A DNA stretch of 64,000 nucleotides, from positions 4,300,001 through 4,364,000 of the forward strand of contig JAYKKM010000351.1 of NCBI GenBank assembly GCA_035772405.1, in the 5' to 3' direction. This DNA is from Chrysogorgia sp. JL179-B06 (lineage: Eukaryota > Cnidaria > Anthozoa > Scleralcyonacea > Chrysogorgiidae). A program made the translations under genes and the position numbers. Of this stretch, positions 42,579 through 57,391 are shown piece by piece (the stretch's first letter is position 1; each line of letters starts with the position of its first letter). Below the pieces are notes generated by a model that saw nothing but the letters and a program-made list of their open reading frames with translations, was not told the origin of the DNA and searched no databases.

Positions 42579-42606
42579 CCCTTACAAAACCAAACACTAT
42601 TTTGAA
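42579..42606 (+). repeat. Left terminal inverted repeat of the 14.8-kb transposon
   Basis: 24 of 25 bases match the inverted right end. A CACTATTTT sequence lies 17 bp inside, but homology extends outside it, so CACTA is not the terminus. Confidence 0.9.
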
Positions 42607-42804
42607 GCTAGTTCAATACTAGTTTGAAAAGCTATTTTAAATCTAGTTCATTGTTCTATTTTAAATGTATTTAGAAAGTGATTGTCAACCCTATTTGTAA
42701 ACGATTTTTATTATAGTTTTAATCTGTTTTAATACTATTTGAAATAATAGTTTAAACATGTTTTAACTTTTCCAAAGCATGCGCTTTAAGCGGATCAGCC
42801 ATTA

Positions 42805-43215
42805 AAATAGGTTTTAAATAGTATTAAAATACATTCAAAATAGTAAACCATGGAAAACGCCATGCTATTTAAAATATAGTTTAATACTATCTTAAGCCTA
42901 GTTTACTTTAAAACAGGTTTTAAATAGTATTAAAATACATTCAAAATAGTAAACTATGGAAAAGCCATGCTATTTAAAATATAGTTTAATACTATCTTAA
43001 GCCTAGTTTACTTTAAAACAGGTTTTAAATAGTATTAAAATACATTCAAAATAGTAAACTATGGAAAAAGCCATGCTATTTAAAATATAGTTTAATACTA
43101 TTTTAAGCATAGTTTTACTTTAAAACAGGTTTTAAATAGTATTAAAAATATCCAAAATAGTAAATAAAACAGGTTTTAAATAGTATTAAAATACATCCAA
43201 AATAGTAAACGTGGA
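42805..43215. repeat. Left subterminal array, ~105-bp unit
   Basis: About four tandem units start with GGTTTTAAATAGTATTAAAA at about 42810, 42916, 43021 and 43127, each containing ATTCAAAATAGTAAAC and TTTAATACTAT. They are likely transposase or partner binding sites, by analogy with subterminal repeats of CACTA elements (inference). Confidence 0.85.
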
Positions 43216-43541
43216 AGAACTCTGATATAGATCATGCAGTACCGTACTCTAGATGGTGAAAGAAAATAAATTGAAGACATACTGTGAAATTTAAAATGAT
43301 TTATTATTGAAAAGCTATAGAAGAAAATATACAAATAGAATTATTTTACATATCAAAAGTTGGGAACTATATAAATAGTTTTTGCTTTATTATAAAGTAG
43401 CATGTAATTTTAAATATGGTAATAGCTTGATAGTTGATATAAATACAAAATTGTAAATAGCTCTCGAGCTTTTTACATAGAATTTTTCATTGTTTGTGGG
43501 TTTAATTTCCACCATGGCATCATGCCTTAGTGGACTTTACT

Positions 43542-46500
43542 TTATTTCTTCACTGCTTTTTTCTTATTGGCATATTTATCTAAAATATAACCAGAAAACT
43601 GTGATTTTACTGTAAATATAATTTGCTACTAACTTCTTGAAAACTGAAAAGAACTAACATGAAAGTTTTTTGAATACTATATAATTATATAATACATACC
43701 TTTGTGGTATGCAGGACGTTGTTGTTTAAACACCAGCTGGTTACATTTAGTCCTTAAAGCCTGTTTGATCATGCCTGCAGTACATTGTTTTTCTTCACTT
43801 ATTTCGATCTTGGCAACAAGTGAGAAATCTGAAAAAAATAATTGAAATAACAACATAAATTTGTTTAATTTCAGATTATAGTGGTTGAAACTGGGCAACA
43901 TAGTTATTATATACTTAGTACTTACCAATAATTGCTGTAACAATGGCAGGATCTAATTCAATCAGCCTTTTGCCTGACAATTTTTCTTTTGGATAAAAGA
44001 TATCCAGAATAGCACAGGCAACAGCTGTTCTTGATTTAGAGCTTTTTATGATCGCTTTAGCTCTAACTGGACAGCACCAGACTCCGCTCGCCAGTTCTGC
44101 TAGCTACAAAAGTGTAAATTGAATAATATCATGAAGGAGTTTGTGTCAAGATGGCAATGATTATTATAATGTTAAGTTTTCTTACTCCTTGGCGAACTGC
44201 TGTTTCCTGTGGAATTTTTCCAGAAGCTGTTTCTACCAAAGAAACTTCAGCCCTCTCTCCAGCACTGCCACTTTCACATACTGTTGAAAACAGTATACAT
44301 GTCCATTAGATTCATTGATTAACAATATTTATGAAATACAAATTGCCTGCCTGGGTTATATAGCCTGATCTGCAAACGTGAGAGTAAATATGGGAGATTT
44401 TGTGGTATTCACCATGTTTAATTATTAAATCTGAGCTTTCAGCTTGTGTACCCGGGTCATCTTCAGAGAAACTAGCATACAAGTTTGCTAACGTCAACAA
44501 AGTATGCCAGTTTCTCTGAAGACGACCCAGGTACATGGGTCAAAAGCTCAGATTTAATAATTAAACACAGTGAATATCAATACCACAACGGTTTTTGATT
44601 GATTTAATAATGTCATGCAAAACTTTAAGGATCAAATATGGGAGAATTTGAAAGTTTGTGTGAACCCAAGTGGTTCGAAATCTAACAAAGTCACTTGAAT
44701 AACTTAACACAGCCTGCCAGCAATGAAAATTTATATAGCAATCATAGTCATACAGAAATACAGTATAACCCACAAAGGTTATCAGAGCTTCTTATATACT
44801 TACACCTATTATATTTTTCTGTCATTTCATTTAATTCGTTTCTCAAATTTATTTTGACCTGAGCACAATTTGGGTTGGTGCACTTTGGGCATTTCCGTCC
44901 AAGCTGTGGGTGTACTGGAGTGCTTGCTTTAACAGGTTCAGTTGTTGATGGGCTGAAGATTTCATCGTCAGAGCTACCAACTGAAGCATCCAGATCATCA
45001 AGTGAATGTGCCATTAAAATGGAATTCATTAAATCTTCTGTTGCCTTCTTTGCAACTTCTTTATCTATAAAGATATATTTAGACACTCAGTTAATAAAAC
45101 AATTAGTCACCCTGATGGACTGCCATCACTTTTATAATTAGAAGCTAGGCTAATTAGTAACAAGCAGAAGAGTCACCTTTTTTTCTGGCCCAGATTTGCT
45201 AGTTTGTTCAGGAATTTTATCTATGAGGATTAATAGAATTACTGTATTAATATCAATGAAAAATAACACAATGAGGTACCAGTACTCCATATAATAATAA
45301 ACTTTCCCCTCCATAACTTCCCCTCTGTAACACTATACCACACTTGAAACATTGTTATATCATTGACTAGCAATATCAGATAAATATATTTAGTATTAAT
45401 TAATAATTACTTTTAAATATATATTTATAATAAAGATAGCTATAATCATGCCAAATAACATAATATAGCCATAGTTAAAGAAATTTTAACCTCAAACAAT
45501 ATACACTTAATGTCTGCTCTCGAGGGAAATGGTTAGTTTTGTTTTCCCGAGAGGCTTGATGTTTCCCGAGATGAAGTCGAGGGAAACATCAAACATCAAG
45601 ACATGGGAGCAGACATTAAGCGTTTTGTTATATAGCGATGAAGAAAAACTAAACATACAAGGCTATCCATGCAAAAGTTTTAACAATTTTAAAATTATTG
45701 CCTAAGCAGGCAATAATTAACAACTTATTGCCTGCTCGGTAGACATTTGAATTTATCTAGGCCCACGTGACCACAAGTCAACCAATGACAGTCTGTATTA
45801 TATCTAGGGAAACCACAGCTATATAACAATTGCACATGTCTCCCTCCAACAGATTATTTGAGCTTATAATTTTCACATTATTTACAGGATCTCAATTAAA
45901 CTTGTAATGCATATGGTTATCAAACAGTCTTATAGAGTAAATTGTTATTATTGGATGAGGCTGAGCATGATATCAATAATTAATTAATTATCCAGGCTCA
46001 CTGAGGTCAATGTTATCTGCCAAAGGCTGAGAACATTGACAGAGGTCTGGATAATTCTTGATATGTGTATCATGTATGCTGAATCCAATATTGTTTTATT
46101 ATAGACCTTATTCAAAAATGGCCGCCTTATTAATATTCTTTATGAATGTTTTACAGTTTTTACACCAGGTATATGATTATATACCTGTTCGATCTACTGC
46201 AGATTTGCTTGGTGTTTTCTGTTTCTTAGATTTGTTTGTATTTTCTACAAGTAAATTAATAGAAATCCAATAAGTTTTGTTCCAGGTATTATGAACTTAC
46301 TGTACATAAGTATAACTAACCATTTTTTTCTTTAGCATTAGGTGTAAATCTTTGGTTCAATCTGTCATGACTTTTTCTAGTTAAGTTAATGGAATCCCCT
46401 TCGTCTACATGTAGAATAGATTGCCAAACAAAGTTAATATTAAATTAATGGGTGAGTTATTATTGCTGTGGGAGCATCAGTGGTGAGAACATACACATTG

Positions 46501-55914: not shown

Positions 55915-56277
55915 CTTGTTACTAAGATGAAGAAGACAGACCACGTTACCCCGGTTCTTCGCGAGTTACACTGGCTACCCATCAGTAAAAGAATCATTTT
56001 AAAGGTACTTCTGATCACCTTTAAGGTCCTAGATGGCCAGGCTCCTGGATATCTCTCTGATCTACTAAATTATCATCGACCATCTTGTCTGCTACGCTCC
56101 AATGCTGACGACAAAAAGCGACTCCAGACCCCTGCGTTTAAAACCAACCATTATGGTGGACGAGCTTTTTCAAATATTGCACCACGACTTTGGAACAGCC
56201 TACCCAGAGACTTGCGTTATTCACCTTCTGTTGACTCTTTTAAAACTGGATTGAAAACCTATTTATTTACTTCTTAG
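55915..56277 (+). pseudogene. Non-LTR retrotransposon, reverse transcriptase C-terminal tail
   Basis: TDHVTPVLRELHWLPISKRI, ITFKVLDGQAPGYLSDLL, LRSNADDKKRLQTPAFKT, YGGRAFSNIAPRLWNSLP and SFKTGLKTYLF are the conserved end of jockey/CR1/Rex-like LINE proteins, with the stop at the usual place. Everything upstream is missing, as in a 5'-truncated insertion. An AT array follows at once, possibly grown from its 3' tail. It lies inside the 14.8-kb transposon, downstream of the transposase stop. Confidence 0.85.
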
Positions 56278-56382
56278 TATATATATATATATATATATAT
56301 ATATATATATATATATATATATATATATATATATATATATATATATATATATATATATATATATATATATATATATATATAT
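56278..56382. repeat. (AT)n array at a LINE 3' end
   Basis: About 50 AT dinucleotides directly after the LINE stop codon. Confidence 0.95.
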
Positions 56383-56879
56383 TTTTATTTTAGATTTAGT
56401 ACTTTTAATGATTCTTATACATGTTTTATTTAATATTGTACGGGCATCGAGATGTGATGTGATGCACTAGAACTTTGTATTATTGTTATTATCATGCTTA
56501 ATCCTCAGCAATGTTAGGCAGTAACTTAACAGTACATGCAAGCAAGCCAACCAACCAACCAGGAAATTGTCAAATGTAGGAACCAAATGACAGATCATTT
56601 TATATCAACACAAGATCTACCGGTACATTCACTGACAGAGAATCCAGCATCAATAATAATGTAGTTATATAAATGTTATGCAACACCATTTTGGTGATAT
56701 TACTGCAAAAAGTAGTATTCAATGTTTTCTGAAAATAAGTAGAGTGAATATGGAACTATTAGAAAATTATGAACTCACAACAATTTGTCTTAGAACTCCA
56801 TAGCTTCAAAACATTCTGTAGAAAACAGTATAACTCAACCTTATATACATGTATAATATATATTATACAGTATATGTGG

Positions 56880-57363
56880 AATTTCAACTAGAGTCAAAAT
56901 AGGACTGTTTTAAAACTAGTTTATAGGACCAAGTTCCTTATTTGATGAACTAGTTTCAAAATAGATGTTGCAGGAAATTGGAACATAGTTTAAAACTAGT
57001 TTTAAGGTTGCACTTTATATTAAATAGTTTTAAAATATACACATAAATTCAAAATATATTTTAAATAGATCACAACTTGTTTTCCATTTCTTCTAAATAT
57101 TTAAAACTAGCTTTAAAATTGACATCTTATGTAAAACATACTTAAAATAGACCTATTTTTTAGCTATTTTGCTTTCAAAATAGTTTTGAAATAGGTAAAA
57201 AAAATTTATTCTGGTTAAAACAGCATTGAAATATGGTTGAAATAGATTTAAAACTGTGAAGACTATTTTAAGAAACTATGAAAAATAGTGTCAAAATAGG
57301 GCATCAGCCTTTAAAAATAGGGGAAAAATAGTTGAAATAGGTTTAAAATATATTTCAAATACC
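56880..57363. repeat. Right subterminal repeat field of the 14.8-kb transposon
   Basis: Many scattered AAAACTAGTTTTA, TTTAAAATAG and TTGAAATAG motifs, inverted relative to the left field but less regularly spaced. They run into the right terminal repeat. Confidence 0.75.
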
Positions 57364-57391
57364 TTTAAAATAGTGTTTGGTTTCGTAAGGG
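57364..57391 (-). repeat. Right terminal inverted repeat of the 14.8-kb transposon
   Basis: Minus strand CCCTTACGAAACCAAACACT + ATTTTAAA. TAATGCAC follows immediately on the plus strand. Confidence 0.9.

Follow-up and report, generated by a model that had tools for sequence, protein, structure and literature searches.

A 64,000-nucleotide stretch of Chrysogorgia sp. JL179-B06 DNA (assembly GCA_035772405.1, contig JAYKKM010000351.1, positions 4,300,001 to 4,364,000; hereafter the window) contains a two-gene transposon of 14,813 bp, in which a gene for a Tnp2-type transposase and a gene for a smaller second protein lie divergently between matching inverted termini. Related copies show that such a gene pair has recently changed place in this genome as one unit. 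The second protein is conserved and probably binds DNA, and by analogy with TNPA of maize it most likely binds the repeats just inside the ends of the element. The evidence that it carries a BEN domain is mixed, and we therefore write the protein as BEN-like.

The two genes form one mobile unit

The termini at 42579-42603 and, inverted, at 57367-57391 agree at 24 of 25 bases and are flanked by TA on both outer sides, so that direct comparison bears out the inverted termini 14.8 kb apart described in an earlier note on this DNA. No further terminus-like site was found in the window within 7 mismatches. The element and its non-coding parts are as follows.

42579..57391, no strand: whole transposon, from its termini; between the units on contigs C435 and C436, similarity extends to within one base of the same termini
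42577..42578, no strand: left copy of the 2-bp target duplication TA, from flank comparison
57392..57393, no strand: right copy of the 2-bp target duplication TA, from flank comparison
42579..42603, plus strand: left terminal inverted repeat, from terminus comparison
57367..57391, minus strand: right terminal inverted repeat, from terminus comparison
42579..43278, no strand: left subterminal region, 7 copies of CTA[GT]TTTNAA; includes a 106-bp tandem array at 42802-43164
56692..57391, no strand: right subterminal region, 9 copies of CTA[GT]TTTNAA
47702..48542, no strand: interval between the divergent start codons, presumed shared promoter

We searched the window's own assembly (780,986,399 bases in 522 contigs, the window lying on C351) with the 25-base terminus and found 76 occurrences with at most 3 mismatches, against none for a reversed-pattern control; a chance match of the termini was thus rejected. 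Among 30 of these 76 sites read with 1.5 kb on each side, a BEN-like match was present in 16 and a transposase match in 2. Sixteen two-ended units were read. At match thresholds of E up to 1e-3 three of them (the window, C435 and C436) have both genes, eight have fragments of the BEN-like gene with no transposase match, five have neither gene, and none of the 16 has the transposase without the second gene. The earlier note had named termini without the BEN gene as an observation that would count against the pairing; such copies do exist, and only as deleted units that lack the transposase as well (13 of 16).

The units on C435 (14.4 kb) and C436 (11.1 kb) have both genes in the divergent arrangement of the window. 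Identity between them is 98.5-99.8% across the four main blocks of the alignment, with lower values in shorter repeat blocks, and their similarity begins one base outside one terminus and ends at the other, while their flanks differ. This near-identity up to the termini between different flanks shows that the pair moved recently as a unit, as the earlier note had supposed in placing both genes in one mobile element. The C436 unit has internal deletions: exon 1 of its transposase is present at 99.5% identity, and exon 5 of its second gene, which falls in a stretch deleted relative to C435, was not found. We rejected the idea that the two genes are neighbours by chance position only, since the pair recurs in C435, C436 and two more distant relatives (C243 and C191, below) and has moved together.

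We counted the 16 units as 12 independent insertions, because five non-autonomous units of 2.6 kb (on C16, C175, C228, C255 and C259) have nearly identical flanks and so look like copies of one insertion, either segmental copies or haplotigs, and not like separate jumps. Matching 2-bp flanks were seen in nine of the 12 (TA four times, then AT, CA, AA, AC and TT). The C435 flanks match at 2 bp and also at 3 bp, those of L047 at 3 bp only (TTA), and L046 and L049 show no flank match. Eight units retain BEN-like pieces only; in seven of these (L044, L045, L046, L049, L050, L051 and L052) the same piece of exon 7, residues 269-290, is present, and they may thus descend from few deletion events.

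The transposase

Our hand-built exon models, with consistent phases, join ten exons into a predicted transposase of 964 residues and nine into a predicted second protein of 382 residues; our modelling thereby recovered the exon numbers, protein lengths and phase agreement reported earlier. Of the 17 introns in the two genes, 16 have GT-AG borders; the remaining one, which follows transposase exon 9, has GC-AG. All ten transposase exons, listed here, could be placed in C435 by a phase-constrained exon finder, giving 991 residues without a stop.

48543..48849, plus strand: exon 1, exon model
49872..50495, plus strand: exon 2, exon model
50959..51199, plus strand: exon 3, with NTDGV and candidate catalytic D364; exon model and alignment
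51315..51427, plus strand: exon 4, exon model
52845..53161, plus strand: exon 5, with candidate catalytic D451 and CxxC; exon model and alignment
53239..53506, plus strand: exon 6, exon model
54116..54313, plus strand: exon 7, exon model
54422..54579, plus strand: exon 8, with FEDxNG and candidate catalytic E723; exon model and alignment
54711..54826, plus strand: exon 9, GC donor; exon model
55003..55555, plus strand: exon 10 with stop codon; exon model and alignment

The Pfam Transposase_21 profile matches the protein at 40.7 bits (cut-off 28.6), which upholds its earlier assignment as a Tnp2-type transposase. In a protein search with residues 180-760, 7994 candidates were scored and 111 of them qualified as relatives at E up to 0.01; those named come from corals and other cnidarians, molluscs, arthropods, a brittle star and fish. 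The best, from Acropora muricata, has 55% identity over 99% of the searched region, and another database relative has 68% identity over 71% of it. An alignment of the window transposase with ten relatives supports the way its exons are joined. D364, D451 and E723 do not vary among the 11 sequences, and we infer that they form the catalytic D-D-E triad. Intron 6 contains an inverted repeat (53519-53706; arms of 77 bases, 97% complementary, 34 bases apart), probably a small foldback element that inserted there. Beyond the transposase but still within the transposon, an open frame at 55903-56277, which has no Pfam match, presumably resembles the end of a reverse transcriptase of non-LTR (non-long-terminal-repeat) retrotransposons.

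The gene pair in diverged relatives

The second gene was modelled on the minus strand with the nine exons below. The phase-constrained finder placed eight of them in C435; exon 3 was dropped there, its placement overlapping exon 2. A further candidate exon at 45177-45220 in the window was rejected because it broke the frame.

47521..47701, minus strand: exon 1, conserved N-terminal 60 residues; exon model, clear in C435
46642..46764, minus strand: exon 2; exon model, clear in C435
46321..46404, minus strand: exon 3; exon model, unplaced in C435
46185..46244, minus strand: exon 4; exon model, weak counterpart in C435
44804..45064, minus strand: exon 5; exon model, clear in C435
44186..44280, minus strand: exon 6; exon model, weak counterpart in C435
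43926..44103, minus strand: exon 7, first half of the BEN-like domain; exon model, clear in C435
43700..43828, minus strand: exon 8, second half of the BEN-like domain; exon model, clear in C435
43542..43579, minus strand: exon 9 with stop codon; exon model, weak counterpart in C435

A genome search with the second protein gave 91 matches and placed its exon 1 at eight loci (C351, which is the window, C435, C436, C243, C275, C191, C321 and C442). All but C321 were examined, and six of these seven (the window, C435, C436, C243, C191 and C442) have transposase exons divergently upstream, in C442 only exon 2 within the stretch read. The C243 unit (12,982 bp) has the divergent gene pair between imperfect termini at 158178 and 171159 with AT on both sides, its left terminus having been identified as the closest counterpart of the right one, from which it differs at 8 of 25 bases. 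In C191 the same divergent layout is known from the genes alone. When aligned with the BEN-like protein of the window, that of C435 shows 57% identity and that of C243 37%. Exon breaks are shared, and in the copies that were read an intron interrupts the BEN-like domain. On the question raised earlier, whether the BEN and transposase genes travel together, the pair recurs in the diverged C243 and C191.

One locus weighs against the pairing: in C275, exon 1 of the BEN-like gene has no transposase match in the 5.7 kb upstream. In a genome search with the whole transposase, 47 of 1057 candidates were scored; they comprise two window exons and otherwise Tnp2 copies in long frames, with 31-37% identity. 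C435 and C436 were not among these 47, so this search gives no count of transposases without the second gene. Of nine other Transposase_21 loci (L001-L009), eight match the window transposase at 21.7-35.4% identity, and none of the nine has a BEN-like match within the short stretches of 3.4-3.6 kb (10 kb for L009). The genome has 150 scored Transposase_21 matches, many in long open frames, and L009 itself (C351:4266614-4268470) lies about 32 kb upstream of the window.

Both genes have stayed under purifying constraint since the window and C435 subfamilies split. The ratio of nonsynonymous to synonymous difference (pN/pS) between the two is 0.307 for the transposase (bootstrap 0.268-0.348) and 0.355 for the BEN-like gene (0.292-0.425), the latter with a C435 model that includes three weakly placed exons. 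Within the BEN-like gene it is 0.191 for the domain, 0.227 for the N-terminal 60 residues and 0.50 for the middle. These ratios are rough, as synonymous differences have almost saturated in the transposase (dS 1.5) and have passed saturation in the BEN-like gene.

Is the second protein a BEN protein?

The BEN label, which the earlier note had applied to the second protein, is moderately supported. The domain shows the BEN pattern by eye. The C243 relative scored 17.0 bits with a profile built from four solved BEN domains, a value reached by none of 1000 shuffles, and a profile-profile comparison of the four relatives (window, C435, C191 and C243) with the four solved domains plus a hand-entered BEND5 domain gave E 9.3e-5 and a probability of 59% over 82 columns. 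Only this relative and this one comparison clearly favour the label.

Several results count against the label. The earlier note had named a failure of the profiles to match as a refuting outcome, and the Pfam BEN model (PF10523) missed all four relatives, while it did match two controls, a made-up consensus and a hand-entered BEND5 domain. Searches of the PDB with the second protein yielded T-cell-receptor chains or nothing, with no BEN chain, and a protein-database search gave 3471 candidates, none at E 0.01 or better. Against the four solved domains, the window protein scored only 0.4 bits (reached by 156 of 1000 shuffles), C435 2.3 bits (28 of 1000) and C191 2.2 bits (41 of 1000). When the hand-entered BEND5 was added, the shuffle counts were 49 for the window, 91 for C435, 14 for C191 and 0 for C243. 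With no hand-entered sequences in the BEN profile the window protein scored 0.2 bits (361 of 2000 shuffles); its 6.7 bits (4 of 2000) against a profile with the hand-entered BEND5 and the made-up consensus we did not count as evidence. The profile of the four relatives scored single known BEN domains at 1.7-3.9 bits (15-36 of 1000 shuffles) and the made-up consensus at 31.9 bits, and the profile-profile comparison was negative with two relatives (probability 0.3%).

These results bear on the alternative that the second protein has some other small DNA-binding domain with the same role in the transposon. The absence of a Pfam BEN match in all four relatives, and a window protein that is indistinguishable from shuffles when compared with solved BEN domains alone, speak for it; the C243 score and the profile-profile match stand against it, and we consider this alternative unlikely. 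The earlier claim of a BEN-domain protein is thus favoured by the C243 relative and the profile-profile comparison, and opposed by the Pfam model and the window protein's own score. With its N-terminal module, charged middle and C-terminal BEN-like domain, the protein is laid out like the human BEND5 and Drosophila Insv type; relative to these it is far diverged in sequence, has no Pfam BEN match and is encoded inside a transposon.

Subterminal repeats and the proposed role of the second protein

We defined the motif CTA[GT]TTTNAA on the window ends and then counted it in the other units. It is concentrated in the ends, with 16 copies against 0 in the interior for the window, 20 against 1 for C435, 20 against 1 for C436 (nearly a copy of C435, so not an independent count) and 14 against 0 for C243. 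First-order Markov ends (300 runs each for the window, C435 and C243) had a mean of about 0.3 motifs and a maximum of 3. The motif has outlasted much change in the BEN-like proteins (57% and 37% identity), an argument for its being read by a protein. The second protein of maize En/Spm, TNPA, binds the subterminal repeats there (PMC2613891), and BEN domains bind DNA with a preference for particular motifs (PMC11472053).

On the strength of this precedent, of BEN DNA binding and of the lasting motif, we propose the following mechanism. The Tnp2 protein would cut and join the ends through its D-D-E centre. The 382-residue protein would bind the CTATTTTNAA-type subterminal repeats with its C-terminal BEN-like domain, bring the ends together and load the transposase, and may also regulate the shared promoter. 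A BEN-like protein unrelated to TNPA would thereby do TNPA's job in maize En/Spm. We lean towards this explanation as a whole, a CACTA-like transposon with a BEN-like second protein that binds the repeats and pairs the ends, and end binding fits because the subterminal repeats are conserved. As a point against it, the transposase itself could bind these repeats. A broader proposal, which we advance tentatively and rate somewhat below even, is an animal CACTA-like lineage in which the BEN protein is the obligatory repeat-reading subunit, an independent counterpart of TNPA and possibly the source of host BEN proteins or the reverse.

The second protein might instead act on chromatin, countering silencing or regulating transcription of the element with no part in end recognition. 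Most human BEN proteins are chromatin-related, and BANP and BEND3 prefer unmethylated CpG motifs (PMC11472053); in fungi, transposons of the EnSpm and Plavaka types include a gene for a TET/JBP dioxygenase (PMC12730594). The deleted units, which keep the ends and not the whole BEN-like gene, allow either role in trans. However, the dense subterminal repeats, kept across subfamilies, would then need another reader, and those of En/Spm are the target of its second protein (PMC2613891), so that we find a purely chromatin-based role doubtful and prefer end binding by the BEN-like protein.

Animal hosts have BEN genes of their own and transposons can pick up genes, yet a captured passenger without a transposon role is disfavoured, and in our view very improbable, given the same partner in the same divergent layout in diverged relatives, the shared exon breaks, and purifying selection on the BEN-like gene between mobile copies whose synonymous change is at saturation.

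Relation to known transposons

In our view the element is probably a DNA transposon that moves by cut and paste and belongs with the CACTA/EnSpm-like elements, which use a Tnp2 transposase. Like the plant En/Spm-type CACTA elements (En/Spm, Tam1, Tgmt*), it has a transposase with a Tnp2 domain, a second protein, subterminal repeats at both ends (here in the window, C435/C436 and C243), a short target duplication, large size and internally deleted derivatives (PMC2613891); its second protein is conserved, and the binding of the repeats by it is putative, by analogy. Weighing against this placement, the ends are CCC..GGG and not CACTA, and the duplications are mostly 2 bp and not 3. Neither CACTA nor CA..TG termini were found: the ends are CCCTTAC..GTAAGGG in the 16 two-ended units, which were chosen by that pattern, and CCCT..AGGG in C243. 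The 3-bp duplication typical of CACTA/EnSpm is not the rule across the 12 independent insertions. We call the element CACTA-like only, because CACTA termini are absent. Further differences from En/Spm are that the second protein is BEN-like and that its gene is separate and divergent, whereas both En/Spm proteins come from alternatively spliced transcripts (PMC2613891).

As described in PMC12730594, the CMCT clade fits the element, which has a Tnp2-type transposase, subterminal repeats, a second protein and duplications within that clade's 2 to 5 bp; other members have an extra TET/JBP gene, whereas here the extra gene is BEN-like and the termini are not CA..TG. The PIF/Harbinger element Nuwa, with its Myb/SANT protein, is likewise a two-gene DNA transposon with a separate DNA-binding protein (PMC12730594), but its transposase superfamily and partner domain are different. 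The novelty is the BEN-like partner of a CACTA-like transposon. Among the papers listed in our searches of an open-licence library we saw none that describes a BEN gene inside a transposon; in the available part of PMC5704228, BEN occurs only in the title of a reference. If our explanation is correct, Tnp2 transposons of animals, like those of plants, can maintain a second gene dedicated to DNA binding, here for an unrelated protein, and the two-protein design would be more general. It would also suggest a concrete way in which BEN domains may have passed between mobile DNA and the chromatin factors of the host, and a defined motif and a defined protein are available for a direct binding test.

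Minor observations

At C426:277353-286170 there are five terminus matches in the same direction, three of their four spacings being exactly 909 bases, which suggests a tandem array containing a transposon end. Elsewhere in the window, the frame at 38-787 looks like a Harbinger-type transposase, that at 14055-14585 a BEL-type RNase H, that at 17278-17946 a monocarboxylate-type transporter, and that at 62048-62545 the GIY-YIG part of a retroelement.

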